Positions 8,089 through 35,452 of a stretch of 64,000 nucleotides of DNA are shown one piece after another (position 1 is the first letter of the stretch; every line of letters starts with the position of its first letter). The notes beneath the pieces were generated by a model, which saw nothing but the letters and a program-made list of their open reading frames with translations, was not told the origin of the DNA and made no database searches. Origin of the DNA: Bacteroidales bacterium (GTDB lineage Bacteria; Bacteroidota; Bacteroidia; Bacteroidales; Bacteroidaceae). The DNA lies in assembly GCA_012517855.1 (NCBI GenBank), contig JAAYUD010000096.1, positions 1-64,000 of the forward strand, written 5' to 3'. The translations under genes and the position numbers were made by a program.

Positions 8089-8109
8089 AATTAATCTAAA
8101 TTGAGTAAG

Positions 8110-11524: not shown

Positions 11525-11574
11525 CATATAAGCTATTTCATCGACGTTTAGATACAGTGACAATGATATTTCAA

Positions 11575-12522
11575 CTATGGTCGACTGATTCCTTGTAGTG
11601 TTCTTATGTAAGTATCCATGGTACCGTCCTCTTTTAGTACAATAATCCTTGCACCTTTTGGATATTTTCCATACGAGAGATAGCCTGTTTTGCGGCCATA
11701 ACATAACTGAATACCGGCAAGTGGAGCAACAAAATCATTTTCGTGATCATGTCCTACAAAAATGGCTTTAACATCTCTCTGCTTCCAAAATTGGTAAAAC
11801 AATCCTGTATTTATAATAGGAGAACAAACTTCTTCATTCTTATGCCCCATCGTAGTAGGACGAGTACGAACATATTCAAATTCGGGCAAAGGAATATGAA
11901 AGAAAGCCAGAGCCGGAACAATACGCTTATTGACAGCTTTAATATGAGTACTTTCTCTGACATACCATGCTACTTGATTTTCTTTAATCCAATCATACTC
12001 TCCCAATATCGAATCATGAATATCCGAATGAGAATCAAACAAGAAAAGATTCCATGTGTTGTGCATTTTGGAAGAGTATATAGGAATAACGCAATTCCCA
12101 TAGCCATCTACACCATGGCCGGCGTTAGTTGTAAGATTGTATGGCTTCTTTATTAAATAATTAAAGATAGTACGCTCAGAGATTCCATGCTGGGCATCGT
12201 GATTACCAAATGTAACGGCATAAGGTATTTTGCGAAGAATAACCGGAGCCAAACACTCATCCCAGCCCCTATAGGCATTCTCCGAGACAACGATATCGCC
12301 TGTGTAAACTACGAAATCAGGTTTTTCTTTATCGAGTACTTCGTTTATTACTCTAAAAGTACTATCATTCTTTTGCGAATTCTTATCGCCCGTCATCCAA
12401 TGCATGTCAGTGAACTGAACTATTTTAAATGTTTTTCCACAAAACTTCAATACGGGTTTGGCAGGATATGCCAACACGAATAGCATCAAAAAGAGGGCGA
12501 AGAATAAATTTCTTTTCATCAT
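11575..12522 (-). CDS. Secreted calcineurin-like metallophosphoesterase
   Basis: 315 residues with a signal peptide. The metallophosphoesterase motifs are complete: FTDMHW (38-42), YTGDIVVS (about 75), FGNHDAQHG (about 105), FFHIPLPEFEY and GHDHENDF, then CYGRKTGY. The same order and wording occur in the N-terminal half of the fusion at 19388-21559 (LTDLHW, TGDVVVS, FGNHDEE, FFHIPLPEY, GHDHNDD, AYGRKTGY). The two are therefore paralogues of one subfamily, distinct from the protein at 2512. It stands alone between its own -7 box and the SusC leader. A periplasmic phosphodiesterase or phosphatase acting on the locus substrate is inferred. Confidence 0.9.
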   Translation of the reverse strand: MMKRNLFFALFLMLFVLAYPAKPVLKFCGKTFKIVQFTDMHWMTGDKNSQKNDSTFRVINEVLDKEKPDFVVYTGDIVVSENAYRGWDECLAPVILRKIPYAVTFGNHDAQHGISERTIFNYLIKKPYNLTTNAGHGVDGYGNCVIPIYSSKMHNTWNLFLFDSHSDIHDSILGEYDWIKENQVAWYVRESTHIKAVNKRIVPALAFFHIPLPEFEYVRTRPTTMGHKNEEVCSPIINTGLFYQFWKQRDVKAIFVGHDHENDFVAPLAGIQLCYGRKTGYLSYGKYPKGARIIVLKEDGTMDTYIRTLQGISRP

Positions 12523-16799: not shown

Positions 16800-16800
16800 T

Positions 16801-17889: not shown

Positions 17890-19383
17890 TTATTTTTCGC
17901 AGGACGGATTTATATATATCTCGTCTATATATACCGGCTGAGGTGCATTAAAGGCTATTTTAAGGTATCTGGCATTCTTGTTGATCTGATTGATAAAGAT
18001 GCCATCAATCCATGCATCATGATTAGTATTGGGAAAGTATGGAGCATCTTTAACAGCAGCCAAGCTATACGAATCTCCTTGATCCGAAAGATATAAATAA
18101 ACCTTGAGTGGCATTCCTATATTACCCGGATGATAGTTCAGCAATCTCATAAATATCTTTTGAATATCCTTTTGATGTTTCATATCGACGACTATTTCAT
18201 GATAACCTTTATCGAACTTGACCCAATGCGCATCGTTCATGTTTTCTTCGGCAAGCTGACCATCAAACAACTCTCTATCTGAAGACATTGAAGTATCTGC
18301 CGTATTCTTGAGCCTCCCCATCAAACTAGCTTCAAAAAGCGACCAATATTCATCTCCCTTTCTCCATGCCTTATAATCGTTATATACTTTTTGCGACCAC
18401 ACAGGTTGCCCCAAATGATAGTTTGTATTGGGCGAATCTATGATACCACAAACACTGAACGAAATGATATTGTCTACCGGAGCCTGAGAAGCAATAGCCA
18501 GTTGAGACAACAACCGTGGGAAAGCGGCAGGTATCAATGCCGAAGTTCTATCGTTGGTTGCCCCTTCCCAAGTAAATGATTCACAATTGGCCCACAACTC
18601 TATATGCAATCTTTGGTGAATATCTCTCAACAACTTCCAATGTTTCTTTAGATTGGGTATGGGGAAAGGTTCTCTGACGCACCCAACCTCGTCTTGATAA
18701 GCAATGATATCTACCTTGAGTTTAGCCAATTGTTTTTCGAATGCAGGGTCTTCGAAAGCAGATTCATAAATGCCATAGGGAGAAATCATAATCTTTTTAG
18801 TGGGAGTCAATGTACGGGCACGTTCGCTTAGTTCATTGACAGCTTTCACAGCATGCTCGGCAAACACCGGACAAAGACAATCTTCGACAGGCAGATACCA
18901 ACCATAAAAGGAAGGACGATGCCCATAAATAGAAGCCACTTCTTTCATAATATCTAACTGTCGCTGTTTAATCTCGGGCTTACGAAGATCATCGTCCTGA
19001 TTTTGTGCCCAACCTATGCTCATGAAGACCTTCATCTTGAGGCGATCGGCTTCATCCATAATAGCATCTACAGGACTTTCGCGCTTTTTATCGTAAATCC
19101 AGGGCATTATCTTGGAAGGGTAATAAGACTGTCCTTCATTGGCAATAGCCATAAATACGAGATACTCAATGCCCATATCATGCAACTCTCTGACCTTGGC
19201 TTTCCACATATCGGGATCGGTGTTATCAAAATATTGAGGATCCATATACTTATTGCGTACATCCTGATATGCTAGATTAATAAATGTGCCTTTGATAGGC
19301 TGTATCTTATCATTGGTTGCAAAAGTAGGTATGGTAACAAACCAACCTATCAATAATAATGAATATAAATACTTACTGAACAT
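17890..19383 (-). CDS. DUF4434-type TIM-barrel protein with C-terminal beta-sandwich
   Basis: 497 residues from the ATG at 19383, which lies 4 bases beyond the preceding stop; the track start at 19419 would overlap the upstream gene. After a signal peptide, residues about 28-300 form the DUF4434-type barrel with three acidic motifs: FYGWYLPVED (E167), IIAYQDEVG (D231) and LWANCESF (E268). Residues about 375-497 look like a discoidin/F5-8-type sandwich (VKFDKGYHEIVVDM, ARYLKIAFNAPQPVYIDEIYI) that could bind sugar. I know of no assigned activity for this domain. The surrounding genes suggest a periplasmic glycosidase. DUF5109 is a possible name for the C-terminal part. Confidence 0.8.
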   Translation of the reverse strand: MFSKYLYSLLLIGWFVTIPTFATNDKIQPIKGTFINLAYQDVRNKYMDPQYFDNTDPDMWKAKVRELHDMGIEYLVFMAIANEGQSYYPSKIMPWIYDKKRESPVDAIMDEADRLKMKVFMSIGWAQNQDDDLRKPEIKQRQLDIMKEVASIYGHRPSFYGWYLPVEDCLCPVFAEHAVKAVNELSERARTLTPTKKIMISPYGIYESAFEDPAFEKQLAKLKVDIIAYQDEVGCVREPFPIPNLKKHWKLLRDIHQRLHIELWANCESFTWEGATNDRTSALIPAAFPRLLSQLAIASQAPVDNIISFSVCGIIDSPNTNYHLGQPVWSQKVYNDYKAWRKGDEYWSLFEASLMGRLKNTADTSMSSDRELFDGQLAEENMNDAHWVKFDKGYHEIVVDMKHQKDIQKIFMRLLNYHPGNIGMPLKVYLYLSDQGDSYSLAAVKDAPYFPNTNHDAWIDGIFINQINKNARYLKIAFNAPQPVYIDEIYINPSCEK

Positions 19384-19387
19384 ATTT

Positions 19388-21559
19388 TTAGTTTTTTGCT
19401 TCAACTTTTTGAGATTCATTGCCTATCGCATCATAAGCGGCAACTTCATATTGTCCTATCGCAGTGTCGGAGGTTTTATGAAGATATTCAGAGGGGATTT
19501 CATTTGCTTTCACTCCGACTCTCATCAACAGTGCCCCATTGTAATAAATGGAGAAACCGGCAATATGATCGTTCTTTTCAGCTGTCCACTTAACAAGTAC
19601 GCCTTGCTTCGTTTTCTGAGCAGATACACTCTGAACAGCCTGAGGAGCATCGCATTGAGGTAGGACTCCTTCTTTGCAATAATCTAAATAAGCCTTATGA
19701 TACGTATTGCTCACTACGTACGGACTATCATAATGACTATAAGCAAAACATATAAAATTGCTGACATAGCGATTCGTTGTCTCCAGCTGTTGTTTGACTC
19801 TGGATAAAGGAGCACTTGTCCAGAAACGTTGGTCGAAAGTCTCTACATTACTCCAGAACTTAAGTCCAGGCTTTGTATTGACGGCCATCTTCAACTTATA
19901 AAACCAATCTTCCAAATGTTCCAAAGTCAACCCGCCGGCTCCAATACAATCTTGAGGAGCAAATATATCGTTGTTTCTGAAATGAGTTTGAGCAAATACA
20001 TTTTGCCACAGCTTCCCACACTCATCAGAAGTTCCTAATTTTTCATTCATGAAAGGAGACAGCAACAGGGGCATATCAGGAGCAATCTTCGTCAGATGAT
20101 CCAAGTTTGTATTCAATGCCTGAGCAAGAACAGCTTGGCGTTCGGGTGTTTTGCATGCTACATTATCTACTTCCCATACCCAGTACCAGCCATACATGGC
20201 ATCTGGATATTTCTTTTTGTATAAAGCGACCAATTCATCGGCGACTTTATTTCCAATTTTCATTTGATCAATCAACCAATCGGCACTATAATCTACCTTC
20301 CACCATCTCTCGTTGAAGTTTAATCCTATGAATATCTTAATGCCATTTCTCTGAGCACTGGCAAGACATTTTTCTAAAGTCTTATCATAGTTCTTACATA
20401 AAGACGTAGGATAGCAGGCGAAAGTCTTTTTCTCATCAGTTTCTAAGGCCGGAGCATAAATTAAATACTTCATTCCAGCCTCCTTCAACATTTTCATTTC
20501 CATATCCCAACGATTGCTGTCCCAATGAGCAACCAACTCACGTTGGATAAACGAACCATTGAACTGTGGAATATCGGTACCCTTATTCTTTTGCTCAAAC
20601 GAGTATCTGTCATGTATTCCTTTTAAGTCGAGAATATAAGTATCAAAAGCAGCCTCATTCTCACGCAAGTTGATGACACGGCCTCCCCTATCCAATATTT
20701 CTTTATAAGCTGCCGGATAACCGGTTTTGCGGCCATAAGCCAATGCAAGGTAACCATTAAAATCAACTAAATAATCATCGTTGTGATCGTGTCCGGCAAA
20801 TGTACCGATCACATCCTTTTGCTCTAGGAATGCAGCACAAAGTCCACTATTGATGGAAGGTGAACACACATCTTCCCCTTTCGTACCAATTGGTGCACAA
20901 TAGGACAATACGGAACTATACTCCGGCAACGGAATATGAAAGAACGCCAATGAAGGCAACCTCCGACCATTACGTGCCGTCACCTCATTACTTGTCCTTC
21001 TATACCAATCTATCTGATCGTGGTGTATCCAATCGTAATATCCAAGTGCGTAATCTTTGACTAAATTGTGCGAATCGAACAAATACAACATCCATTTTTC
21101 AGCATTTTCGTTTGAAGAATAAATAGGAAGAGCACAATTCCCCGAACCGCTTAATTTCTCCGCATCATAAGTTAAATTGTAAGGTATGGTACGAAGGAAG
21201 TTCAATACTTGAGCATTATTGACATCGGTCTCTTCATCATGATTTCCGAATGTAACAGCAAAATAAGTCTTCTCGTTTACAAAAAGATCCGTTATTTTTT
21301 TCCACGCCACCAACGCATTCCTGGAAACGACAACATCACCGGTTAGAACAACAAGGTCGGGATGCTCTATCTGAAGCATATTTTGTATCAAATGATAAGT
21401 GCTATCATCACGAGACCGATATGTCTCGTCTTCTATCCAATGTAAATCTGTAAGCTGTAAAATTTTAAACTTCCCATTATGGAATCTCAGTTTAGGCGTT
21501 TGAGCCTGTAAGAATAATCCATACAGGCAGCATAAAAGTAACAATAAATATTTCTTCAT
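19388..21559 (-). CDS. Metallophosphoesterase-DUF4434-FN3-like fusion protein
   Basis: 723 residues with a signal peptide. Residues about 25-320 are a complete calcineurin-like phosphoesterase (LTDLHW at 36, TGDVVVS at 73, FGNHDEE at 104, FFHIPLPEY at 206, GHDHNDD at 256). Residues about 335-620 are a DUF4434-type barrel with YGWYWVWE (E463), FAPQDCIG (D537) and FWSNVETF (E573). Residues about 640-720 look like a fibronectin type III-like sandwich (LVKWTAEKNDHIAGFSIYYNG). Each half has a stand-alone relative in this locus: the phosphoesterase at 11575 and the DUF4434-FN3 protein at 37016. Fusion implies that both activities meet the same substrate. Confidence 0.88.
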   Translation of the reverse strand: MKKYLLLLLCCLYGLFLQAQTPKLRFHNGKFKILQLTDLHWIEDETYRSRDDSTYHLIQNMLQIEHPDLVVLTGDVVVSRNALVAWKKITDLFVNEKTYFAVTFGNHDEETDVNNAQVLNFLRTIPYNLTYDAEKLSGSGNCALPIYSSNENAEKWMLYLFDSHNLVKDYALGYYDWIHHDQIDWYRRTSNEVTARNGRRLPSLAFFHIPLPEYSSVLSYCAPIGTKGEDVCSPSINSGLCAAFLEQKDVIGTFAGHDHNDDYLVDFNGYLALAYGRKTGYPAAYKEILDRGGRVINLRENEAAFDTYILDLKGIHDRYSFEQKNKGTDIPQFNGSFIQRELVAHWDSNRWDMEMKMLKEAGMKYLIYAPALETDEKKTFACYPTSLCKNYDKTLEKCLASAQRNGIKIFIGLNFNERWWKVDYSADWLIDQMKIGNKVADELVALYKKKYPDAMYGWYWVWEVDNVACKTPERQAVLAQALNTNLDHLTKIAPDMPLLLSPFMNEKLGTSDECGKLWQNVFAQTHFRNNDIFAPQDCIGAGGLTLEHLEDWFYKLKMAVNTKPGLKFWSNVETFDQRFWTSAPLSRVKQQLETTNRYVSNFICFAYSHYDSPYVVSNTYHKAYLDYCKEGVLPQCDAPQAVQSVSAQKTKQGVLVKWTAEKNDHIAGFSIYYNGALLMRVGVKANEIPSEYLHKTSDTAIGQYEVAAYDAIGNESQKVEAKN

Positions 21560-21576: not shown

Positions 21577-22518
21577 TTAATTCTCGTATAATTCTGATAT
21601 TCCTTGGCTAGTCCCCAGATAAATACAATTACCGAAAGTGGCAATCGTTTGTACCCGGTTATCTACCAAAGAACTATTGTTTCTATTATAGTGTACCCAT
21701 CTTTTACTATCAAAGCGGTTGACACCATTATCGGTACCAACCCATATATTCCCTTTGTGATCCTCAGCAATGCAATAAATGAAGTTGGAAGAAAGAGAAG
21801 TATTATTCGTATTATAAAGCACCCATTCCTGGCGATAATAGCACAACAGACCTTTCATTGTTCCTATCCACACTCTTTTCTTAGAATCGACACAAAGAGT
21901 ATATATATCATTAGTCGGCAAGATACTATTAGAAGTATTGAACGTTTTTGAACCCACATTGCGATGATATACACTCACACCATGATAAGTAGCGATCCAA
22001 ACATTGTCATCAGAATCGGACACAACAGAAGTAACAGTACTATCACCAGTACTAAGGTTATCAACCTGTTGTTTGGTATGTGTTTTACCATTCAAAACAA
22101 GTAGTCCATTATAACAATCGCCTATCCATAATTCATCTCTTTTGTCTACGTAAATACAGTTCACATTAGAAACCATCTTGCTTAAAACACTCCATGATTT
22201 ACTTGAAGTATTTTTTATAAATAGTCCATTCCCCCATGTACCGGCTAATAGATTATCATTGCGGTCAAGAATAAGAGTTTGAATATAATGATTCTCAAGT
22301 CCATCCGAAATCCACTCACCATCAACGAACTTGTATATACCCTTCCATGTACCAACCCACATGCCACCGTTTTTAGCAAAGACAATAGCGCTAATATCAT
22401 TTTGAGAAGACAGAGAATCGGTAATCAAAACATTTCTCCAATGATATTGAGCGCTCATGATTGTGGGAGCGTACAATAAAAGGATAAAAAACAATCTCTT
22501 AATATGCAATTTCACCAT
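21577..22518 (-). CDS. Secreted beta-propeller of the two-component-regulator type, free-standing
   Basis: 313 residues with a signal peptide (LFFILLLYAPTIMSAQ). The rest is a run of propeller repeats with the typical WVGT/WIGT strands: GGMWVGTWKGIYKF, NLLAGTWGNGLFI, ELWIGDCYNGLLVL, NVWIATYHGVSVY, RVWIGTMKGLL, NIWVGTDNGVNRF and IYLGTSQGISEL. These repeats normally form the periplasmic sensor of hybrid two-component systems. Here there is no Y_Y_Y domain, membrane segment, kinase or receiver. It overlaps the upstream DUF4434 gene by 7 bases, so the two are translationally coupled. It may bind glycan or assist its neighbours; no catalytic residues are evident. Confidence 0.85.
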   Translation of the reverse strand: MVKLHIKRLFFILLLYAPTIMSAQYHWRNVLITDSLSSQNDISAIVFAKNGGMWVGTWKGIYKFVDGEWISDGLENHYIQTLILDRNDNLLAGTWGNGLFIKNTSSKSWSVLSKMVSNVNCIYVDKRDELWIGDCYNGLLVLNGKTHTKQQVDNLSTGDSTVTSVVSDSDDNVWIATYHGVSVYHRNVGSKTFNTSNSILPTNDIYTLCVDSKKRVWIGTMKGLLCYYRQEWVLYNTNNTSLSSNFIYCIAEDHKGNIWVGTDNGVNRFDSKRWVHYNRNNSSLVDNRVQTIATFGNCIYLGTSQGISELYEN

Positions 22519-23582
22519 AACTTATTTTTAAGTCCTTGTCTATACCAATGATCATAAGCTTCATATAAATGAACTGAATCAGGATGTCCTGCAAAAGCTG
22601 TAGCCCCAGGTTTATTCATCAAACCGATATATTGATAGATCAATATATTGTCTACAAATGGAGAGACATCTTCAATTTGCTTCTGAATACGATTAAAATC
22701 GGCAGGTATCAATGCACTCTTATAAACGTCTCCTTCAAATCCGAAGATCTCCATATCAGCCCATATTTTTGCTCTTCCTGCCTTTTTATGAGCCGAACAT
22801 AATGCTTCGAAATACTTACCGGCATATCCTGCTCTGGTTTTCTTAACACCAACTTCGTCCTGATAAGCTATAATATCAATATCCAACTGCTCAAGCTTTC
22901 TAACGTATTCATCATCTGCACGAACAGACTTAGTACCATAAGGAGCAATCAAATTGACACACTTAGGCATTAATTGACGGGCAATTCTACTGCAATTATT
23001 CACATAGTTAAGCGTTAAATCATCGATCGTATTCCATAAGCCCGATTCATTGGGATAGTACCACCCATAAAAGCTGCTATGATGACCGTATTTCTCAACA
23101 ATCTCTATCATTGCTCTTTCGCGCAAAGCAGCAATGTCCTTGTCGGTCATCATCTTGTATGTATCGTCACTATTACCCCAGAAATCGTTACTGACAAAAA
23201 ATTTAATGCCACAAAGATCGGCTTCGGATAGTACAGCTTCCAGAGGATCGTTACATACATAATCGTACTGAGGTTGCAACGTTGAAGGATAAAATGTCTT
23301 TCCATTATTTGCCACCGCCATCAGAACAAGATACTGCATACCCATATCACTCATCTCTCTAATCTTGGCACGCCATTGCGTCTCAGAGAATCCGGGCAGG
23401 ACAGCATTCCAATACTTACCTTCGGCATCTGAGCCATGAAGAAATTCAAACCAAGATCCTGTGATCGGCTTAACAATATGTTGTTTCTCTGTTGTCTCTA
23501 TCCGATTAGCCAAAACATCATTGCTCAAAAGCAATGATGTCGAAACCAATCCACATGTTTTTATAAATTTGCGTCTATCCAT
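22512..23582 (-). CDS. DUF4434-type TIM-barrel protein with twin-arginine-like signal
   Basis: 356 residues from the ATG at 23582. The track start at 23624 would put 14 residues ahead of the signal MDRRKFIKTCGLVSTSLLL, which has an RR motif and a hydrophobic core. The barrel starts at SGSWFEF-like wording (about 41) and carries FYGWYYPNES (E179), IIAYQDEVG (D242) and IWADMEIF (E278). It is clearly paralogous to the protein at 39728. Its stop overlaps the start of the propeller gene. No activity is known to me; a glycoside hydrolase role is inferred from the fold, conserved acids and PUL position. Confidence 0.82.
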   Translation of the reverse strand: MDRRKFIKTCGLVSTSLLLSNDVLANRIETTEKQHIVKPITGSWFEFLHGSDAEGKYWNAVLPGFSETQWRAKIREMSDMGMQYLVLMAVANNGKTFYPSTLQPQYDYVCNDPLEAVLSEADLCGIKFFVSNDFWGNSDDTYKMMTDKDIAALRERAMIEIVEKYGHHSSFYGWYYPNESGLWNTIDDLTLNYVNNCSRIARQLMPKCVNLIAPYGTKSVRADDEYVRKLEQLDIDIIAYQDEVGVKKTRAGYAGKYFEALCSAHKKAGRAKIWADMEIFGFEGDVYKSALIPADFNRIQKQIEDVSPFVDNILIYQYIGLMNKPGATAFAGHPDSVHLYEAYDHWYRQGLKNKLW

Positions 23583-23674
23583 GTACCATAAAATAAATCC
23601 AAAATTATCCTGAAAAATAATCAATTTTGCCTTATAAAAACCAACCTCTAAAGAAAAACATATAACATCAACCT

Positions 23675-24886
23675 TTAATTATACAACTTTAACATGAGTG
23701 ACTGATTCTTAGCTAGTTTAAAGCTCAGTATTCTACTTATAGTTCCAATTGTCTTATGAGTGTACAAATCTCTCAACTTGTATATTTTATTTTTAGTGAA
23801 AGTTACAGCATAATTAAAATCAGGATCTTTAATAGTTTCTCCTAGCCAATTGTATTTTAAATCGACTGTTTGATCCGAGTTATTAAAGAAACATACGGCC
23901 CATTCATCATTTACTAATGGACGTATCCAAATTTCCACAGATCCCTGAACTATCTTATATCGGAATCCTTGTATACCGAGTTTATCTTGATTGACAGCTA
24001 TAACATCGGTATTTTTAATAATATCCAACGTAGAAGGAGAAATATTTCTTAAATCGTTCCCCAAAATAAGAGGAGAAGCCAAAATGGCCCATAATGCAAA
24101 ATGAGTTTCCTCCTCAAAATGCGTCAATCCCCCATTGCCTATTTCGAGCATATCCATATCGTTCCAATGTCCAGGTCCTGCAACTTTGCGCAGCATAGCC
24201 TGATCGCGATTGGTAAGTACCTCCAATACTCCATAACGATCTTTTGATCCGTTAAAGCAATTATTTATATCCCCAGTCGTACGCCAACTATGACCTACAT
24301 TTTTCGCCCATTTCCATGGCTGATTATCTCCCCACTCGCAAAGGCTGAATAAAACAGGACGATTGGCTGCATGAAGAGCGTCTCTCATAGTCTTATAAGC
24401 TTCGTATGCGTTCATCATATTGGCATAACACCAATCAAACTTCAAATAATCGACACCCCATTCGGCAAACTTCAATGCATCCTGATATTCATGTCCTCTA
24501 CTACCTGGATATCCTGCACATGTGCTATCCCCAACGCAACTATATAAGCCAAATTTCAAACCCTTAGAATGAATATAATCGGCAAGAGCCTTCATACCAT
24601 GAGGAAATTTATCTGGATTGGCCACAAAATTCCCTTGATCATCTCTATGCATCCCCATCCAGCCATCATCCAAAATAATATATTGATAGCCCATCTCTTT
24701 TAGACCCAGCTTCACAAAAGCATCTGCTATACCTTTTATTTTCTCTTCATTAATATCACAACCAAATTTATTCCAACTATTCCACCCCATCTGTGGAGTC
24801 AATGCTAAATTAGCAAATTTCTGTGCAAAAGAAACGACACAACAACACAATAACAAACTGAGGGTTAGTATTCTTCTAATATTCAT
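23675..24886 (-). CDS. GH27 alpha-galactosidase
   Basis: 403 residues with a signal peptide. GH27/clan D motifs are complete: TPQMGWNSWNKFGC (30-43), ILDDGWM (71-77), YLKFDWCY with the nucleophile D151, WRTTGDI with the acid/base D206, and GHWNDMDML. A C-terminal beta domain follows (about 310-403). It should release terminal alpha-linked galactose (or alpha-N-acetylgalactosamine, a known GH27 activity) in the periplasm. It lies 33 bases downstream of a second GH27 gene. Having two GH27 enzymes in one operon suggests two different galactosyl linkages or positions. Confidence 0.93.
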   Translation of the reverse strand: MNIRRILTLSLLLCCCVVSFAQKFANLALTPQMGWNSWNKFGCDINEEKIKGIADAFVKLGLKEMGYQYIILDDGWMGMHRDDQGNFVANPDKFPHGMKALADYIHSKGLKFGLYSCVGDSTCAGYPGSRGHEYQDALKFAEWGVDYLKFDWCYANMMNAYEAYKTMRDALHAANRPVLFSLCEWGDNQPWKWAKNVGHSWRTTGDINNCFNGSKDRYGVLEVLTNRDQAMLRKVAGPGHWNDMDMLEIGNGGLTHFEEETHFALWAILASPLILGNDLRNISPSTLDIIKNTDVIAVNQDKLGIQGFRYKIVQGSVEIWIRPLVNDEWAVCFFNNSDQTVDLKYNWLGETIKDPDFNYAVTFTKNKIYKLRDLYTHKTIGTISRILSFKLAKNQSLMLKLYN

Positions 24887-24919: not shown

Positions 24920-26905
24920 TCACTTCTCTTGAGTAACCTTTATAAATCGGACTCCATGATAAGGGACCTTTGTTTTATAACATCCATCAAATATTCCAAT
25001 ATCTTGTTGCCTCCATAAATCTCTAACTTTAGCTTTTCCTTTGATACCAAGCGCTGAAAAATCTATTTTAAGATCATACAAACATCTTTGTACCTTTTCT
25101 CCTTCCTTTTGATTCCACAGAATGTAATATGGATCTATTTGAAAAAGTCCTACAGCATACGAACCATCGTATAACTTTTTATACCATATTTGTCCGTCAC
25201 GAGTCAGTATCTTTTTTGCCGGCGAAACGATAGAATCTTGATCCACGGCAATAACTTCATTATTAGTAAGCAGATTTAAAGTAAAATCATCCATATTTGC
25301 CATATCGCAACCAATTAACAAAGGTGCTGACAAAATAGACCACAACGAGATATGTGAATATTGTTCGTCGGCTGTCAGATAAGAATCATGAATATTTCCC
25401 CAAGGCTTGCCAAGTGTTCCAACAACCAGCATGTCAGGATCATTGTATTTTCCAGGGGCACTGGACTTAGCACAAACGTCTTGAAAACAACCAATAGCTG
25501 TGACGACATTCCACTCATCAGTAATATCGCGTGTGGTACGCCACTGATTACCTCCAGCTTCTTCTCCCCACTTCCATACGTTGGGAGCACCATAGCCTAT
25601 ACAATAAACAATATCCCTATTCACCTTATCTAAAGCTTTGCGCATGGTAATATATGGCTCTTGAATCGTTTTCTCCTCCGAATTTCTCTGCACACTCGAA
25701 TATCCACAATAGTCGTATTTCAGATAATCCACTCCTTGTGAAGCCCACGTCTTTGCATCTATATCCTCATGCTGATAGCTACCGATATAACCGCCACAAG
25801 TAGTTGGACCGGGAGAAGAGTAAATACCAAACTTCAACCCCAAAGAATGGATATAGTCAGTGAGGCCTCTAAAATCGGGAAACTTTTCATTCGCAAGAAT
25901 TTCTCCATTCTTTGTTCGATTCGCAGCTTCCCAACCATCGTCAATATTCACGTAATTCCATCCATAGTTGTATAATTTCTGATGCATCACACGAGCGGCA
26001 TCGCGCACTTTGCTGTCATCTACCGCAAGCGCCCAACAATTCCAACTATTCCATCCCATTGGAGGAGTCAACGCAATATCTTTACCAATCTTAATAGTAA
26101 TCGCTTTTTTATCTATTCCTTTTTTATTTGTAGCAGTCAGAACAACCTTATAATTCCCATCTTTAAGAGCAACTCCGGTAATTAAACCACTATTCGGATC
26201 TATACTAAGTCCTTCGGGTAAACCGGAGGCACTGAAAGTCATAGGGCGAATACCCGTTGTCATTACTCCCCATAAAAAGGGATTGCCTTTGCGTGCACCA
26301 TATACCAAGGGATTGTTGATACAAGGATTTTCACTCGCTGCAGGCGTGAGAATATACTTTTCTTTCTGAATAGTTTTTGGGACGGCAGGAATAGGCACAA
26401 TTTTATCTTTTGTTATAAATCTTACATTTAACCAATCGGCATGATCGTACATGATACCATCTCCGCACTCTTCAACTAAGAACAAGACTTCGCGGATACC
26501 CGACAGACTAACATTGAATTTCTTCGGAGCATCACCTTTCTTCATTATTCCACTTCTCCAGAGAATTTTCTTATCACCCAATATCTTGAACTGAAGATGC
26601 CCTGCAAAAAGATTATTGTCGTCTGCACCGGCTAAACCAGAAACAGAAAGAGCTTTACTATTTAAATCAAGAAGTATACGACTAATAGAATGGGCACCCA
26701 CTCCATGTTTATAAACGACACCCTTAACTTTAAGCGGAGTTCCCAACACGGACTTATTCATTTGCGGAGTACCCCAATCTTGAACATAATAGGCACTTTG
26801 TCCCAATTGATCCAACCAGACATATTTAAGATGTGAATTTCCTGTAGCAAAAGAGCTGTTAAAAGAAATCAACAAGATAAATCCCAAAAGTATATTAGTT
26901 CTCAT
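24920..26905 (-). CDS. GH27 alpha-galactosidase with NPCBM and Ig-like domains
   Basis: 661 residues with a signal peptide. Residues about 25-165 are an NPCBM-type carbohydrate-binding domain (VYKHGVGAHS, HADWLNVRF). Residues about 195-275 are a putative Ig domain (FSASGLPEGLSIDPNSGLITG). Residues about 280-660 are a full GH27 domain with TPPMGWNSWNCWA, NIDDGWE, YLKYDYCG (nucleophile D398), WRTTRD (acid/base D460) and YNDPDMLVVG. The added domains may anchor the enzyme on a large substrate, so this copy could act on polymer while the shorter GH27 trims oligosaccharides (inference). It is the first gene after the hairpin that follows the SusC-SusD-binding protein trio. Confidence 0.92.
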   Translation of the reverse strand: MRTNILLGFILLISFNSSFATGNSHLKYVWLDQLGQSAYYVQDWGTPQMNKSVLGTPLKVKGVVYKHGVGAHSISRILLDLNSKALSVSGLAGADDNNLFAGHLQFKILGDKKILWRSGIMKKGDAPKKFNVSLSGIREVLFLVEECGDGIMYDHADWLNVRFITKDKIVPIPAVPKTIQKEKYILTPAASENPCINNPLVYGARKGNPFLWGVMTTGIRPMTFSASGLPEGLSIDPNSGLITGVALKDGNYKVVLTATNKKGIDKKAITIKIGKDIALTPPMGWNSWNCWALAVDDSKVRDAARVMHQKLYNYGWNYVNIDDGWEAANRTKNGEILANEKFPDFRGLTDYIHSLGLKFGIYSSPGPTTCGGYIGSYQHEDIDAKTWASQGVDYLKYDYCGYSSVQRNSEEKTIQEPYITMRKALDKVNRDIVYCIGYGAPNVWKWGEEAGGNQWRTTRDITDEWNVVTAIGCFQDVCAKSSAPGKYNDPDMLVVGTLGKPWGNIHDSYLTADEQYSHISLWSILSAPLLIGCDMANMDDFTLNLLTNNEVIAVDQDSIVSPAKKILTRDGQIWYKKLYDGSYAVGLFQIDPYYILWNQKEGEKVQRCLYDLKIDFSALGIKGKAKVRDLWRQQDIGIFDGCYKTKVPYHGVRFIKVTQEK

Positions 26906-26979: not shown

Positions 26980-28098
26980 CTACTTCTCGGATAACCTAAA
27001 ATTATCAAAACTCATATCCACATTTTCATCGCTTTCGACTCTTATATTTAAAGAACCAGCACTCGATGCGTCGCTGGCACCCACAGGAAGAATCTTTTCA
27101 AACGGTATAGATATTGTCTGCCATGTACCATAATTTTGGACTGTAAAGCAATCGTTTCCAATAGCATTAGGAGCATGATTCCAATAAAAATAGATATAAA
27201 ACTTAGTACCTTTTATAGGATATCCCATATTCAATTCAAATTTCAACACATATTTATCTGGATGTTGTTCCATATCATCAGTATAGTTAAAACCATTGCT
27301 TGTAATATATAACCAACCGAAATCCACTGGATGAGTTGCATCCGCTAACAAACGGAGGAAATTACCGGATATCGGATATGGCCTTTGTTTTTTATTATGC
27401 TGATCCTGGACAATAAAACTTGAGCTATTGTCTCCAACGCCATCATAATCAGCAATCATCCATTTGTTATCCCGATAGCGTCCAGAACATATAGCATCTA
27501 CATTATACTTCGAATTATGTATTGATACTTGAGCATTCGACGCAGCATCAGCGGGGACTTTGGCTGTAATATAAGTATCGGTAGACTTAATAACAGGAGT
27601 TTCTTTATCTCCAAATTTCACCGTCGAATTCGAGCTATTCACTTCATAAAGTTGTAAATATTTACCATATATTTTTATTGTATCCCCAGGTTGAGTATAC
27701 TCACAAAACATTCCAGTCAGTTGCAAATCTGGAATATTCACTTTAAAACCGTAAGAGATATCACCCCCTTTTGATTTTAATGTAAGTTTGTCGTTTACCT
27801 GCTTTGGTATTTTTACCGGGACTTGCAAATACAACACACTATCTTCCGAATAAAAATCTTTAGGAAGGACTGAAACATCATTAAACATGACCGAGTCTAC
27901 AGAATTAAGATGAGCACCACTAATAGCAATCCAATCTCCCATACTTCCACTTGAAAGAGAAGTACTCAAATCTTTAATTGGAGTAACTTTATTAAAGACA
28001 GGAGCGACTTCGGAATCCTTATCACTACATGAACCAGCTATAAATATAAACAGCAGTCCGAATAGAATATATGTTATATTATCTTTTAATCGTTTCAT
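26980..28098 (-). CDS. IPT/TIG-containing surface glycan-binding lipoprotein
   Basis: 372 residues with a lipoprotein signal (LFIFIAGSC). Residues about 35-115 and 120-200 read like IPT/TIG Ig-like repeats (STSLSSGSMGDWIAISGAHL, MFCEYTQPGDTIKIYGKYL). The C-terminal part (about 210-372) resembles the binding domain of PUL surface glycan-binding proteins (WMIADYDGVGDN, VSFEKILP-like IPFEKILPVG, ending MSFDNFRLSEK). Third position after SusC and SusD is the classic place for such a protein. It would hold the polysaccharide at the cell surface; it is not an enzyme. Confidence 0.85.
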   Translation of the reverse strand: MKRLKDNITYILFGLLFIFIAGSCSDKDSEVAPVFNKVTPIKDLSTSLSSGSMGDWIAISGAHLNSVDSVMFNDVSVLPKDFYSEDSVLYLQVPVKIPKQVNDKLTLKSKGGDISYGFKVNIPDLQLTGMFCEYTQPGDTIKIYGKYLQLYEVNSSNSTVKFGDKETPVIKSTDTYITAKVPADAASNAQVSIHNSKYNVDAICSGRYRDNKWMIADYDGVGDNSSSFIVQDQHNKKQRPYPISGNFLRLLADATHPVDFGWLYITSNGFNYTDDMEQHPDKYVLKFELNMGYPIKGTKFYIYFYWNHAPNAIGNDCFTVQNYGTWQTISIPFEKILPVGASDASSAGSLNIRVESDENVDMSFDNFRLSEK

Positions 28099-28124: not shown

Positions 28125-29855
28125 TTACCACCCTGGATTATTTTTATCAATATAAATATTCGTATTTACTTCATTTGCAGGAAGAGGCAACAACAAATGT
28201 TTCTTTTCGCGACGTTTCACATTACCATTTTCATCCAATCCGTCAATAGGACTGATTGAATTCATAGTTTGCAAGTAGATACCCCAGCGCAATAAATCGA
28301 ATCGACGTATACCTTCAGCCGCAAATTCTTTCGCTCTTTCTTGTAATATGTAAGACCTAAAATATTCCTGATTAGCCGTGATAAGGGTTTGTCCCATTTT
28401 AACACCAGACACTAAAGGACTCTTGTTCCGACTATTCAGTTTTTCCACTTGTTGAATAGCGTATTGCGATGGCGTTCCATTTACTTCATTGTCAGCCTCT
28501 GCATAGAGAAGCAAAACCTCTGCATAGCGCATGAATGGGAAATTGAAGTCAGTTCTATTACCGGTGAGAGGCGCACTAACTTGTCTAAATTTCATCAACT
28601 TAGAACCATACAAGTGAGCATCGTATCTGAGCTCATCAGTAGGTTGATATCCATCTAATCCTAATCTAACTTTTACGCTATCTTTAGCAGGATAGTAGCA
28701 ATAATATAATTTCCCTTGATATTCACTATATGGATATCTGTGAATGACTCCCCAGGTTATTCGATCGTCGCCATCATCAAATGTCTGATACCAATGATCT
28801 CTCTGAACATAATAACCATCCGTAAGGTATGTAGCCCCATCTGCTGTATACCAATAACCCGCATAATCTGTAGCTACATAATTGCTCAAATCATCGTTTC
28901 CAGCCAATGTCTGCAAGGTAAAGATAAACTCTTTTCCATTCTTGCTCGAAACATCCCACAGTGTTTTTTGAGATGGGTAAAGATCAAACTCTCCAGAATC
29001 AATCACTTCTTTGGCTTTGTCCATACCCAACTTATAATATGCTTTGGAATCAAACTCCTCGTATCCGGCGACTTGATCTTTAGAAAATGTCTGCCAGGAT
29101 GGATAAGGGACTCTAATATGATTTCCATCAGCATCTTTCGTATAGGCAGGTCCCCCCATAACAGATATTTGACTTCCCGCAGCCATAGACGCAGAACCAA
29201 TAGTACAATAGACCTTTGCCAATAATGCTCGAGCGGCTCCACGGCATACATGACCAGACTGATAAGAAGCATCCTGACGTGTATACAAGTGTTCTTCTGC
29301 AGCTTTCAGCTCGCTAATGATATAGTCATAGACATCTTTCACCGAAGAACGCGGTTTATAAAAATCAGCACCCTCAGAAACACTATAAGTATACAAAGGA
29401 AGTGGCCCATAGAACTGAACTAAGTTAAAATAAGACCAAGCTGTTAAAAACTCCAGCTCACCAACAGCATTATTTTTCACTTTTTCTGCGAGATCCATCT
29501 TCTTAATTAAAGAAGCATGATATTGTGCTCTATGAATCGCTTGATAATAATAGATCCAAAAGTTATTCACACTGCCATTTTCATAAAAATTACCAGCGCC
29601 CATATCTGTAAAAGCCCACGTAGGTCCCGTTTGGTAATCCGTATCAAAGTTTACTACCGTATGATAGTTTCCCCATTGAAAGGGATAAGCCAATACCGTA
29701 TATGCTCCCGAAACAAGTTCTGAATAACTTTTATTTGAGACTAATTCATCACCGGAAACGAATGTGTATACCTTTTCGTCTAACAAATTAGAACAAGAAG
29801 AAGTTGTTAAAACGGCAAGAGCAACTACGGCATATTTAATAAAATTAGATTTCAT
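28125..29855 (-). CDS. SusD/RagB-family outer-membrane lipoprotein
   Basis: 576 residues, with lipobox LAVLTTSSC and the SusD fold signature: ELEFLTAWSYFNLVQFYGPLPLYT (about 135-158), RGAARALLAKVY, FPFMRYAEVLLLYAEA, and the C-terminal ERAKEFAAEGIRRFDLLRWG ending in KNNPGW. It forms the surface lid of the adjacent SusC channel. It starts 25 bases after the SusC stop and has low similarity to the other SusD here. The two pairs are therefore likely to take up different oligosaccharides, or arrived separately. Confidence 0.95.
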   Translation of the reverse strand: MKSNFIKYAVVALAVLTTSSCSNLLDEKVYTFVSGDELVSNKSYSELVSGAYTVLAYPFQWGNYHTVVNFDTDYQTGPTWAFTDMGAGNFYENGSVNNFWIYYYQAIHRAQYHASLIKKMDLAEKVKNNAVGELEFLTAWSYFNLVQFYGPLPLYTYSVSEGADFYKPRSSVKDVYDYIISELKAAEEHLYTRQDASYQSGHVCRGAARALLAKVYCTIGSASMAAGSQISVMGGPAYTKDADGNHIRVPYPSWQTFSKDQVAGYEEFDSKAYYKLGMDKAKEVIDSGEFDLYPSQKTLWDVSSKNGKEFIFTLQTLAGNDDLSNYVATDYAGYWYTADGATYLTDGYYVQRDHWYQTFDDGDDRITWGVIHRYPYSEYQGKLYYCYYPAKDSVKVRLGLDGYQPTDELRYDAHLYGSKLMKFRQVSAPLTGNRTDFNFPFMRYAEVLLLYAEADNEVNGTPSQYAIQQVEKLNSRNKSPLVSGVKMGQTLITANQEYFRSYILQERAKEFAAEGIRRFDLLRWGIYLQTMNSISPIDGLDENGNVKRREKKHLLLPLPANEVNTNIYIDKNNPGW

Positions 29856-29880: not shown

Positions 29881-32800
29881 TTAGAAAGATAATTGTACAC
29901 CAAGATTGAAAGTTCTCGCACTTGGATAAGAATCCATATCAACGCCACGACGGGTTGGGTCACTACCAAAAGCATTTACATCAGGATCATACCAACGATA
30001 CTTGGTGATAGTAAACAAATTGTTCACGGAGAATGTAATATTAACCGTTTCAACACCTTCTATAGGATTGTTGAAACGATATCCCATCGTAATATTCTTC
30101 ATCCGTAAGAAAGAGCCATTTTCGACGAAACGATCAGAGGCTTTCAATGCCCTAGTATAAGTAATATCGGCACGTGGGAATTGAGCATTTTTTCTATTCG
30201 TATCGGTCCAGCGGTTGTCCCAAACAAACTTAGGCATATTACTAGTCCCAGACATATCATAACCTACTAAATTTGCATTCAATATATCATTTCCTTGAAT
30301 ACCCTGAATAAAGAAACTTAACGTAAAATCTTTATACGTAAAAGTATTGGTCAAACCATAAATAAAATCAGGGTTTGTATTGCCGATCACCACTTTGTCG
30401 CGGCTGTCAATGGTGCCATTATGGTCAATATCTTTATATTTTACCTGACCAATCATACTCCGGACAACATTGTCTGCAGCATCTTTATATTGAGGATTAG
30501 CCCGAACTTCCGCTTCATTATCGAAGTAACCATCTTCTTTGTATCCATATATTGTACCCATAGACATTCCATTACGACGAATGAACATACTTTCTAACCC
30601 CCAACATACATCTGAGAACTGATCTGCAGGAAGATTACATACTTTATTTTTATTAAACGAAATATTAGCATCAATTTTCCACATAAAACGCCTATTATTA
30701 ACAGGGATGAAATTTCCTGTGATTTCCAAACCGCTATTTTTAATATTCGAATAATTGGAGGGGACAGTATTAAATCCAGTGGAGTAAGGTATATATAAGT
30801 TTTGCAATAAGCCTGTCGTATTTTTACGATAATAGTCAATTACGAAATTCACTCTATTGTTTAAAATCGACATATCTAAACCGACATTATACTGCTTCGT
30901 ATTTTCCCATTTCAAATTTGGAGCAGCAGGGCCCGCCCAACGATCTTCAGCATATCCACCAGAGAGCACTCCATTATAAGTGTAAGGATATGCTACCATT
31001 TGAGAACGTGTTGAATAAGAATTAATACTTTGATTACCGGTCTCACCATAACCGATACGCAATTTCAGGTTATCAAAGAAATTAAGTTTCTTAATGAAAC
31101 TCTCTTCCGACAATCTCCAAGCAAACGCTCCTGAATAGAAATCAGCCCATCTGTGGAAAGCCAAACGGCTGGAGCCATCGCGACGCCATGATGCCGTAAA
31201 CAAATATTTATCCATCAAAATGTAGTTTGCACGAGCTAAATAAGACATTAAACTGCTGCGTCCTCTACTCGAAGAAGGAGTATCGTACTTAGTTGCCCCA
31301 CCCATGTCATATTCTTCATTAATATCAGTGGCAAAACCAGAGCCGGACATTGACTTGCCACCCCAATCGACTTTTTCATAAGTAGTACCAAGTACAGCGT
31401 CCACATGATGAATGCCAAAATTTTTATTGAAAGATAAGGTCGTTTCTGAAGACATACTTTGATACCAATAATCAGACTGCGAGGCATAACCATTTATAGG
31501 TGTTACACCACCTTGAATATATCTATTATAATATTGATCCCTCTTGGACTGACTATATCCATACCCGAAACTTTCTTTCAAATTTAAGAAATCAAAGAAA
31601 TTGATTTGCCCATAAGTAGAGTTGTAGAAATCTATTGACTCCAATATATTTTTTGCTGTCTGCGCATAAAGATACGGATTAGAACGGCTATTTCCATAAT
31701 CCTCCGAAAAGCCGGAAGGGTGGTCAGGGTCGTAAATACCTTTAGTTGGAGTGAAAGAGATGGCATCGTTGATAATGCCAAATGTCTCAGAATTCGTTCT
31801 CGTCATACGGTTTTGAGACTTAGATGCAGTTAAGAAGTTACCGAACTGAAACCATTTAGTCACTTTTCTTTCTATATTCGAACGTATATTATAACGTTTG
31901 TAATAAGAATTGACAATGATACCCTGCTGATCTAATGCTCCTATTGAAAATGTATAAGAACCTTTCTGATCACCACCGGACAAACCTAAATTATAGTCTT
32001 GTGTAAAAGCGGTATGGAATATTTGATCTTGCCAATTGGTATTGAAACACCATTGCTTACCATTCGCAAAATAACCGGTTCTATAATCGTCTGGGCTACC
32101 ATTATAAGTACTATCGGTTCGAGCAATAATTTGCCCAGTTGCCGGATCGGTGACAGTTCTAAAAGTCCATCTTCCGGGAACAGGATAAGGCAATAGATTA
32201 TCCGGAGTATATTCACCACCATCGTATGTATATTTATTACGCGCTTCTTCATTTCTAAATTCAGCGTATGTACCGGCATCCAATACCTTCATCTTCTTAA
32301 TAGCATTTGTAATGGAGTAGTTCGCACTGAATTCGACTTTAGTTTTTTCTCCCAATTTACCACGTTTAGTCGTAATAAGAACAACACCATTAGCCCCACG
32401 AGAACCATAAATCGCCGTAGCCGAGGCATCTTTCAATACTTCAATAGACTCTACATCACGAGGATTCAAAAAGCTCAAAGGATTATTGGTCTGTTTAGTA
32501 GCATAGTCAGTGCCTGGAGCAGATCCTGTATTAAACGGTACACCGTCGACTACATACAAAGGTTCTGCAGACGTAGTGAAAGAGTTTGCTCCACGAATCT
32601 GAATACTGATCCCTGCCCCAGGAGCTCCATCGGATTGCATAACTTGTACACCGGCAATTTTTCCCTGTAAAGCCTGATTAACATTAACAGGGTTTGTCTT
32701 TAGCAACTCATCCCCTTTAATAGAAGCGACAGAACCGGTTAAATCCCTTTTCTTCACAGTTCCATAGCCAATTGCAACGACTTCTCCTAAAGTAGTCACT

Positions 32801-33132
32801 TCTTCTTGCATGTGCACAGTCAAAGATTTATGCCCATTAACAACGACCATCTTTGTTTTATATCCAATACACGAGAATTTCAACACAGATTTCTGAACGT
32901 TCTTCACAGAAATTGAAAACCGTCCATCCATATCGGACATTGTACCATTCTTTGCCCCCATCTCTACTATAGAGACGCCATTAAAAGGAGAATCTTTTTC
33001 ATCTAAAACCACTCCCTTTACCACTGTTTCTTGTGAGAACACAGAAGGAAGACAAAATAGAAGCAGAAAGACTGATAGTATACCAACTTTCAGTACTTCA
33101 CAACAATAAAAACTTTTCTTTTTGATTTTCAT
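29881..33132 (-). CDS. SusC/RagA-family TonB-dependent transporter
   Basis: 1083 residues. Signal peptide, carboxypeptidase-like domain (VKGVVLDEKDSPFNGVSIV), TonB-box-like EVVAIGYGTVKKRDLTGSV, plug (GKIAGVQVMQSDGAPG, IQIRGANSFTTSAEPLYVVDGVPF, ESIEVLKDASATAIYGSRGANGVV) and a barrel ending FNLGVQLSF. First gene of a 12-gene unit that runs without a gap above 92 bases to the terminator at 13062. It imports the degraded glycan through the outer membrane. The 321-base upstream region probably holds its promoter and a long leader. Confidence 0.95.
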   Translation of the reverse strand: MKIKKKSFYCCEVLKVGILSVFLLLFCLPSVFSQETVVKGVVLDEKDSPFNGVSIVEMGAKNGTMSDMDGRFSISVKNVQKSVLKFSCIGYKTKMVVVNGHKSLTVHMQEEVTTLGEVVAIGYGTVKKRDLTGSVASIKGDELLKTNPVNVNQALQGKIAGVQVMQSDGAPGAGISIQIRGANSFTTSAEPLYVVDGVPFNTGSAPGTDYATKQTNNPLSFLNPRDVESIEVLKDASATAIYGSRGANGVVLITTKRGKLGEKTKVEFSANYSITNAIKKMKVLDAGTYAEFRNEEARNKYTYDGGEYTPDNLLPYPVPGRWTFRTVTDPATGQIIARTDSTYNGSPDDYRTGYFANGKQWCFNTNWQDQIFHTAFTQDYNLGLSGGDQKGSYTFSIGALDQQGIIVNSYYKRYNIRSNIERKVTKWFQFGNFLTASKSQNRMTRTNSETFGIINDAISFTPTKGIYDPDHPSGFSEDYGNSRSNPYLYAQTAKNILESIDFYNSTYGQINFFDFLNLKESFGYGYSQSKRDQYYNRYIQGGVTPINGYASQSDYWYQSMSSETTLSFNKNFGIHHVDAVLGTTYEKVDWGGKSMSGSGFATDINEEYDMGGATKYDTPSSSRGRSSLMSYLARANYILMDKYLFTASWRRDGSSRLAFHRWADFYSGAFAWRLSEESFIKKLNFFDNLKLRIGYGETGNQSINSYSTRSQMVAYPYTYNGVLSGGYAEDRWAGPAAPNLKWENTKQYNVGLDMSILNNRVNFVIDYYRKNTTGLLQNLYIPYSTGFNTVPSNYSNIKNSGLEITGNFIPVNNRRFMWKIDANISFNKNKVCNLPADQFSDVCWGLESMFIRRNGMSMGTIYGYKEDGYFDNEAEVRANPQYKDAADNVVRSMIGQVKYKDIDHNGTIDSRDKVVIGNTNPDFIYGLTNTFTYKDFTLSFFIQGIQGNDILNANLVGYDMSGTSNMPKFVWDNRWTDTNRKNAQFPRADITYTRALKASDRFVENGSFLRMKNITMGYRFNNPIEGVETVNITFSVNNLFTITKYRWYDPDVNAFGSDPTRRGVDMDSYPSARTFNLGVQLSF

Positions 33133-33453: not shown

Positions 33454-34464
33454 TTAGTTTGCTCCTGAAAGAATAATAAGAGCCAGTCCTAAAGCATACA
33501 GAACAAACATAAGCACCAATAAAGTATTAACCGTTTTACTTCTATGAGAAAACTCATGCCATACAAAAACACCCCAAAAAGCGGCAATCATAGGAGCCCC
33601 TTGCCCTAGAGCATAAGATATAGCAGGACTAGCCTTGCCCGCAGAGATATAACTCAAAGATGTACCAAGCGCCCAAATAATGCCACCTAATATTCCTACG
33701 CTATGCAATTTTAATGGAGCAGAAAAATAAGTTTTATAGCTAACAGGAAGTCCAACAAATGGCTTCTTCATCAAAACAGAATTAAAAACAAAGTTACTCA
33801 AGAACACGCCGATTGAAAAGACAAAAATAGCAGAATAGGGTGTCATCATACCAACTGCCGGCGATTCAAAATTCTGAACATCCATACCCTTTATTACAAA
33901 TCTATAAAACAAGGACATTAAAACACCGGCAACTAAAGCTACAACAACGCCTTTTCTGTTAGCACTTTTTTCTATAGAGTTTGTTTGCGTCTTACCAGAT
34001 GCAACTCCATTACAAATAATGGCAATTGTTATTAGCACAACTCCACTAAAAAGCAAAATAGGGTTTCCTCCCGGAATTCCTATATAATTTATAATTACAC
34101 CAAGCACCAATGCTATTCCAACCCCCAAAGGAAAGGCCACTGCCATACCTGCCAATGAAATTGAAGCAGATAGCAGAATATTAGAAGCATTAAATATAAT
34201 ACCTCCAAGCAGAACCCACATAACACTTTGCAGAGAAACTTGAAGTAAATCTTGAACAAATGGTCTCCCCATCTCTCCATGGCTACCCATCGTAAAGCCA
34301 AGCAAGACAGTAAACAAGACCATTCCAATCACATAGTCCCAATAATAAAGCTCATACCGCCAATTGCTAGAGACTAATTTTTGTGTATTACCCCACGACC
34401 CCCAACAGATCATTGTAATCACACAAAAAAGAACAGCAATCAAGTAACTACTAACTGTAAACAT
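33454..34464 (-). CDS. Sugar permease of the GRP/DMT superfamily (RbsU/RusT-like)
   Basis: 336 residues with about ten hydrophobic helices and no signal cleavage site, so an inner-membrane permease. The wording (CWGSWGNTQKL, YYWDYVIGMVLFT, GGIIFNASNILLSASISLAGMAVAFPLGVGIALVLG, SYALGQGAPMIAAFWGVFVWHEF) fits the glucose/ribose uptake (GRP/RbsU) branch of the drug/metabolite transporter superfamily, often misnamed multidrug permease. It is the last gene of the unit, 36 bases after the ribokinase gene. Uptake of a pentose such as ribose into the cytoplasm is the natural reading. Confidence 0.82.
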   Translation of the reverse strand: MFTVSSYLIAVLFCVITMICWGSWGNTQKLVSSNWRYELYYWDYVIGMVLFTVLLGFTMGSHGEMGRPFVQDLLQVSLQSVMWVLLGGIIFNASNILLSASISLAGMAVAFPLGVGIALVLGVIINYIGIPGGNPILLFSGVVLITIAIICNGVASGKTQTNSIEKSANRKGVVVALVAGVLMSLFYRFVIKGMDVQNFESPAVGMMTPYSAIFVFSIGVFLSNFVFNSVLMKKPFVGLPVSYKTYFSAPLKLHSVGILGGIIWALGTSLSYISAGKASPAISYALGQGAPMIAAFWGVFVWHEFSHRSKTVNTLLVLMFVLYALGLALIILSGAN

Positions 34465-34500: not shown

Positions 34501-35430
34501 TCACACAAAAGTATTGCCTATTTCATTCCTAAAAGGAATAGATCCCTGTGCGCCCATTCTTGTTACACAAATCGAGGCAGCCTTCGTTCCAAATTGGACA
34601 GCCTCGAATACTGTTTTACCTTCTGCCAAAGCGACACATACTCCACCACAGAAAGTATCACCTGCCGCAGTAGTATCAACAGCTTCTACGCTATAAGCAG
34701 GAATCTGTTTGTATTTTCCATCATGAAAGACAATAGTTCCTTTCGATCCCAGAGTGACAATCACCGTTTTAACACCCTTGGATATTATCTCTCCAATAGC
34801 ATCTTGAGCAGACTTCAAATCCGCAACACATCTTTTCGTAATAGTTTCCATTTCAGGCGAATTTGGTATTATAACATCTACATTCGACAATAATTCAGAA
34901 GGCAATGCCTCTTTTGGAGCAGGAGCAGGATTAAGTACAACTATTGCACCATGCTGCTTAGCCATACGAGCCGCATAAGTCACGGTGAGGACAGGAATCT
35001 CGAGTTGTAATAAAACGATAGCTGCGTTTTTGATAATTGGTTCCGCACGGTTTATATCTTCTTCAGATAAACAATAGTTAGCTCCAGAAGCCACAGATAT
35101 GCAATTTTCTCCCTTTTGATCTATATTAATAAGAGCAACGCCCGAGGGCTGTTCAGATGAAACACTTACATGCTCTACATTTATATGATCCTCATTATAT
35201 TTCGCGATAGCTTCCTTGCCAAACATATCATTACCCACTTTGCAAATAAATGAGACATCGCCTCCCAAACGAGTGGCAGCAACGGCTTGATTTGCACCTT
35301 TCCCGCCTGGATTCATCAAAAATTCTCCACCCAAAACGGTTTCTCCCGGTTTGGGGAAATGATCAGATTTAATGACCATATCTGTATTACTACTTCCAAT
35401 AACAACTATTTTTTTCTTTATATTGCTCAT
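34501..35430 (-). CDS. rbsK: Ribokinase-type PfkB kinase
   Basis: 309 residues from the ATG at 35430 (MSNIKKKIVVIG); the longer track start would overlap the preceding gene. PfkB/ribokinase motifs: GSSNTDMVIK, NPGGKGANQAVAATRLGG (sugar-binding GGKGANQA), LEIPVLTVTYAA, NPAPAPKEALP, VIPNSPEMETIT and VDTTAAGDTFCGGVCVALAEG with the catalytic Asp in AAGD. It phosphorylates D-ribose, or a close pentose, to the 5-phosphate. With a GRP-type permease after it and an ADP-ribosylglycohydrolase-family gene before it, the setting resembles the ribose utilisation (rus) locus of B. thetaiotaomicron. Confidence 0.9.
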   Translation of the reverse strand: MSNIKKKIVVIGSSNTDMVIKSDHFPKPGETVLGGEFLMNPGGKGANQAVAATRLGGDVSFICKVGNDMFGKEAIAKYNEDHINVEHVSVSSEQPSGVALINIDQKGENCISVASGANYCLSEEDINRAEPIIKNAAIVLLQLEIPVLTVTYAARMAKQHGAIVVLNPAPAPKEALPSELLSNVDVIIPNSPEMETITKRCVADLKSAQDAIGEIISKGVKTVIVTLGSKGTIVFHDGKYKQIPAYSVEAVDTTAAGDTFCGGVCVALAEGKTVFEAVQFGTKAASICVTRMGAQGSIPFRNEIGNTFV

Positions 35431-35452
35431 GATTTTAGAGGTTACATTAATT

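Follow-up and report, generated by a model that had tools for sequence, protein, structure and literature searches.

The fusion gene at positions 19,388–21,559 of the window (the whole 64,000-nucleotide stretch of DNA from a gut-type bacterium of the Bacteroidales that was analysed) joins a metallophosphoesterase to a DUF4434 barrel. On balance we favour the view that its product is a hydrolase, secreted to the periplasm or the cell surface, that performs two steps in a ribose-recovery PUL resembling Rus: one on a phosphate ester, the other on a glycosidic bond close to it. This view starts from two domains with intact catalytic positions, a fusion that recurs, linkage to ADP-ribosylglycohydrolases, a ribokinase and permease in a subset of loci, and one triple fusion. 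Coordinates are collected in Table 1.

Table 1. Positions in the window of the fusion gene, its domains and the surrounding genes.
Feature	Position	Strand	Basis or remark
Fusion gene: signal peptide, metallophosphoesterase, DUF4434 TIM barrel and FN3-like tail	19388..21559	-	Pfam and AlphaFold2 model
Metallophosphoesterase domain, residues 31-260	20780..21469	-	Binuclear metal ligand set complete; Pfam, alignment, AlphaFold2 model, Foldseek
DUF4434 barrel, residues 334-613, acids E463/D537/E573	19721..20560	-	Pfam, model, structure alignment
FN3-like C-terminal tail, ~residues 640-723	19391..19642	-	Model and 2w1n profile match
Stand-alone metallophosphoesterase, first gene of neighbouring SusC/D operon (8110-12522)	11575..12522	-	44% identity to fused domain
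Barrel-only paralogue, lipoprotein-like N-terminus	37016..38308	-	54% identity to fusion; groups with fused barrels in tree
Secreted ADP-ribosylglycohydrolase-family protein, candidate ribosidase	35453..37003	-	Homologue fused to the pair in L040
Ribokinase	34501..35499	-	TIGR02152, 365 bits against NCBIfam cut-off of 300
RhaT/ureide-permease-like transporter	33454..34464	-	Paired with ribokinase in relatives
SusC-type TonB-dependent receptor	29881..33132	-	Fusion's own PUL
SusD-type lipoprotein	28125..29855	-	
Surface glycan-binding protein, SGBP_B-like	26980..28098	-	
GH27-type alpha-galactosidase with NPCBM domain	24920..26905	-	
GH27-type alpha-galactosidase family protein	23675..24886	-	
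DUF4434 protein	22512..23624	-	Other subfamily than fusion
DUF4434 protein	17890..19419	-	Third subfamily; start overlaps fusion gene end by 32 bp
SASA-family acetylesterase	38305..39708	-	
DUF4434 protein	39728..40789	-	Same subfamily as 22512
LacI-family regulator	41009..42013	+	Divergent from PUL

In the window's list of open reading frames the fusion is a single unbroken frame of 723 residues with an ATG start; its N-terminus is signal-peptide-like and the protein is predicted to be secreted. Both domains lie well above their Pfam cut-offs: Metallophos (PF00149) scores 51.4 bits (E 2.3e-13; cut-off 21.5) and DUF4434 (PF14488) 190.3 bits (E 6.6e-56; cut-off 30), whilst the C-terminal tail resembles the FnIII domain of NagJ (2w1n; profile E 1.7e-4). 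Together with the invariance of the metal ligands and the alignment to BT_0435 described below, these matches bear out the original prediction of one protein with a complete calcineurin-like metal site, a DUF4434 acidic triad and an FN3-like tail. An AlphaFold2 model built from a 24-sequence alignment has a mean pLDDT of 84 and domains that are individually confident; the pTM of the whole chain is only 0.68, so that a joint, fixed active site is only conjectural.

The metal ligands of the phosphoesterase half (D38, H40, D75, N106, H107, H208, H257 and H259) are invariant across an alignment of 12 sequences. When the domain was modelled alone, Foldseek returned Lmo2642, pig purple acid phosphatase, the zebrafish dimetal phosphatase 2nxf and Mre11/SbcD with approximately equal scores. 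Since monoesterase and diesterase folds score alike, the fold does not fix the type of phosphoesterase, and neither the sequence nor the modelled fold separates a monoester from a diester or a pyrophosphate as its substrate. The claimed match to the stand-alone phosphoesterase at 11575 holds as to identity (Table 1), but that enzyme belongs to a neighbouring operon with its own SusC/D and occupies a separate branch from the fused domain in the phosphoesterase tree. The window holds a third metallophosphoesterase, at 2512. The neighbouring PUL (2512–12522, minus strand) encodes two metallophosphoesterases alongside SusC/D, an alkaline phosphatase and a GH63/trehalase-like enzyme, and has the appearance of another phosphate-glycan system. 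A PUL elsewhere (L085) has SusC/D and GH63-like genes that match this neighbouring PUL, not the fusion's own, and encodes one 1120-residue protein comprising GDPD, alkaline phosphatase, metallophosphoesterase and PA14 domains (L085:8626–11985, G323).

For the barrel half the best PDB match is BT_0435 (4h41; TM 0.76 by target length), the sole DUF4434 protein found among solved structures, followed by glycosidases of the GH-A clan, for example GH158, GH39, GH51 and GH2. E463, D537 and E573 align with the three acids of BT_0435, and the same acids are found at the equivalent positions of every DUF4434 protein in the window, five in total: the fusion, its close relative at 37016, and the more distant 17890, 22512 and 39728. 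In the AlphaFold2 model the candidate catalytic residues E463 and E573 follow strands 455–460 and 567–572, respectively, a placement that may correspond to the Glu on strands 4 and 7 of retaining clan GH-A glycosidases. The predicted resemblance of the barrel half to 37016 is upheld by the identity (Table 1), and the two genes lie in the same PUL. The literature searched contained no mention of DUF4434, hence no recorded activity there, and none of a ribofuranosidase; the search for BT_0435 gave unrelated matches only.

DUF4434 proteins of the BT_0435 type often neighbour an MFS transporter or a GlcNAc-2-epimerase, and in some loci an FAD oxidoreductase lies nearby. As several subfamilies thus occur in differing contexts, the fusion is informative for one branch only. 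It had been called the most direct clue to what DUF4434 proteins act on; that holds for a single subfamily, the BT_0435 type having another context, and the ribose genes considered below are a stronger clue. Two further arrangements were seen: an ADP-ribosylglycohydrolase flanked by two divergent DUF4434 proteins, which repeats the pairing in another branch of DUF4434 (L101:7482–12290, G406), and an FAD-dependent oxidoreductase joined in one protein to a MetallophosN/C enzyme, encoded close to a GlcNAc-2-epimerase and a BT_0435-type DUF4434 protein (L094:11965–15198, G342).

A scan of species genomes gave 19 loci with the fusion's barrel subfamily, every one found via the barrel peptide MYGWYWVW, so the set is unbiased towards the phosphoesterase half; G437 (L082) was added to make the 20 loci used for counts, with the window counted apart. 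As the original prediction had proposed, the fusion was looked for in other genomes, and it occurs undivided and full length in six further Bacteroidota genomes with names (L036–L040 and L050; 49–65% identity), including isolates of Bacteroides oleiciplenus (L036, 65%) and Dysgonomonas mossii (L037, 62%). The two domains are encoded by neighbouring genes in L041, L042 and L043, with gaps of 10, 13 and 16 bp. Among 393 evenly sampled genomes of the order, one fused form and one adjacent pair were found besides the window, and the fusion was not found in the sample of genomes from the phylum; it is uncommon yet spread across several families. A single clade of all fused barrels, as a single origin of the fused state would give, was rejected (p-AU 7e-5), implying either two origins of the fusion or an ancestral fusion that was later split or lost. 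Barrel-only 37016 and L044 are nested within a group of fused barrels in the tree, as expected if their phosphoesterase half had been lost.

The association extends beyond this one architecture. In L040 a single 1126-residue frame carries Metallophos (32–263), DUF4434 (337–624) and ADP_ribosyl_GH (661–951) matches to Pfam, and in L054, from Caecibacteroides pullorum, the order is reversed, with DUF4434 (27–310) preceding MetallophosN/C (430–872). The DUF4434 domain of L054 belongs to the fusion's subfamily, and the phosphoesterase of L054 to a different phosphoesterase subfamily; with a different order and subfamily this fusion is independent, which adds weight to the Rosetta-stone argument for joint handling of a phosphate ester and a glycosidic bond. 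Separate MetallophosN/C enzymes adjoin or lie near the barrel in L046, L047, L048 and L053, and GDPD enzymes lie near it in L041, L046 and L047. Overall, a phosphoesterase is fused or no more than ~5.2 kb away in 14 of the 20 loci, a count that leaves out an opposite-strand GDPD gene in L052; the barrel is without a nearby phosphoesterase in the other six (L044, L045, L049, L051, L052 and L082), some of whose contigs end early. As background, a rough count from family searches places ~6 of 45 SusD genes in the window's genome no more than 10 kb from a Metallophos gene. The loci are related by descent, so these counts are not independent and no probability is attached to them. The predicted closeness of a phosphate ester to a glycosidic bond in the target thus gains from the recurrence and from the independent L054 fusion; the choice between diester and monoester is not settled by sequence or fold.

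Ribose, on which the original prediction did not draw here, is a stronger substrate clue than the fusion alone, given the ribokinase and linked permease of the window and the ADP-ribosylglycohydrolase, which 14 of the 20 loci encode and which is a fused domain in L040. The ADP-ribosylglycohydrolase is fused or within 205 bp in 10 loci and absent from six, where some contigs end early; for background, a family search found two in the whole 3.64-Mb genome of the window. A ribokinase and a ribose-type permease lie near the barrel in 7/20 loci, and also in the window, where they cluster with the SusC/D pair (29881, 28125, 34501 and 33454). The window permease is a putative ribose transporter, assigned only by linkage to ribokinase; among 18 clusters of its relatives most have an adjacent ribokinase, usually with no DUF4434 gene. 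The ribose system of B. thetaiotaomicron, Rus, comprises BT2803–2809 with the putative ribose transporter RusT (PMC12596196, citing Glowacki et al. 2020).

The gene run that includes the fusion ends (13129–17874, minus strand) with genes for a GH2 exo-glucosaminidase-like enzyme, a ROK kinase and a SIS-domain protein, which may indicate an amino-sugar branch in the substrate. A secreted Reg_prop beta-propeller gene (21577–22518, minus strand) sits between two DUF4434 genes, and Reg_prop homologues adjoin DUF4434 genes in L042 and L099.

In the mechanism that we propose, SusC/D would import an oligosaccharide or conjugate that contains ribose and bears phosphate, the metallophosphoesterase half would open or remove its phosphate ester, and the DUF4434 barrel, with its clan GH-A-like fold, would cleave the glycosidic bond beside the phosphate, E463 and E573 being the candidate acid/base and nucleophile. 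The ADP-ribosylglycohydrolase would afterwards release ribose, to be imported by the permease and phosphorylated by the ribokinase. The window's GH27, SASA esterase, GH2 and extra DUF4434 enzymes would remove further residues from a more heavily decorated substrate; their genes favour a decorated glycan over plain nucleotides. We infer the order of the steps, the bond types and the substrate; for the last, our guess at the likeliest concrete candidate is a ribose-containing bacterial surface polysaccharide.

The ribose genes would also fit the scavenging of nucleotide conjugates, with the phosphoesterase serving as a nucleotide phosphatase or as a pyrophosphatase of the ADP-ribose/NAD type. 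The barrel and the ADP-ribosylglycohydrolase would then hydrolyse the ribosidic bonds in ADP-ribosyl or poly(ADP-ribose)-like material, and the target would be nucleotide-derived ribose and not a polysaccharide. The DD and D-x-D metal-site motifs present in the ADP-ribosylglycohydrolase are consistent with this, as are the nucleoside hydrolase gene that adjoins the cluster in L049 and L050, the minimal loci L039, L040 and L050 that have neither GH27 nor SASA, and the third Foldseek match, 2nxf, which we take to be an ADP-ribose/CDP-alcohol diphosphatase. Lmo2642 and purple acid phosphatase, however, score level with 2nxf, and the expanded loci, that of the window among them, also carry GH27, NPCBM, GH2, SASA and several DUF4434 genes, for which a glycan is the better fit; we consider nucleotide scavenging unlikely, though still a serious rival given the minimal clusters that lack these extra genes.

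A domain fusion can equally reflect common localisation or expression and not consecutive steps. The two domains might thus be merely co-delivered, attacking different parts of one complex glycan or different substrates, with the fusion setting stoichiometry and location and no common phosphate–glycosidic site. The six loci that lack a nearby phosphoesterase, the barrel-only paralogue within the same PUL and the low whole-chain pTM despite confident domains would all suit this arrangement, but the recurrent adjacency, the triple fusion of L040 and the independent fusion of L054 argue against it, and it too seems improbable to us. An assembly artefact or chance read-through linking two genes, a concern attached to the original prediction, is easily imagined as a one-event join given the 10–16 bp gaps in L041–L043; it is ruled out for practical purposes by the full-length fusions in six other genomes, isolates among them, which show the fusion to be neither unique nor artefactual, and we give it virtually no credence.

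The preferred reading, a two-step hydrolase of a ribose-recovery PUL, can tentatively be taken further, to a proposal that we regard as possible though doubtful: that the fusion's DUF4434 subfamily is an uncharacterised glycosidase family specific for the bond beside the phosphate in ribofuranose-containing phosphoglycans (for example ribitol- or glycerol-phosphate-linked polymers of bacterial surfaces). Phosphoesterase, DUF4434 and ADP-ribosylglycohydrolase would then work as a line of three enzymes, joined in a single protein in L040, to degrade such a polymer to free ribose. If true, this would be a PUL employing ADP-ribosylglycohydrolase-family enzymes as ordinary glycan ribosidases. Taken together, the conserved fusion, the triple fusion and the ribose genes restrict the candidate substrates, which could otherwise be any glycan, to ribose compounds that bear phosphate, and the fusions supply expressible test proteins for DUF4434, a domain whose structure has been solved.

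Compared with known enzymes, the phosphoesterase half has the same fold and metal ligands as purple acid phosphatase, Lmo2642 and SbcD/Mre11, at ~10–16% identity, but belongs to a secreted, PUL-encoded and barrel-fused protein. BT_0435, deposited as a putative alpha-L-fucosidase, has the Pfam family, fold and three aligned acids in common with the fusion barrel, whereas its identity is 18%, its subfamily and gene context are different, and it has no phosphoesterase domain. The multidomain GDPD–alkaline phosphatase–metallophosphoesterase–PA14 proteins (L061/L085) likewise contain a related, PUL-borne phosphoesterase fused to other phosphate-releasing enzymes but, unlike the window fusion, have no DUF4434 domain. 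The closest parallel to the whole system is Rus, which we take to combine SusC/D-type import, a ribokinase, a dedicated ribose permease and a nucleoside hydrolase. By gene content alone, the window PUL resembles it in having SusC/D-type import, ribokinase and ribose permease genes in one cluster, and L049 and L050 in their nucleoside hydrolase; to these the window PUL adds the phosphoesterase–DUF4434 fusion, the ADP-ribosylglycohydrolase, GH27 and SASA.
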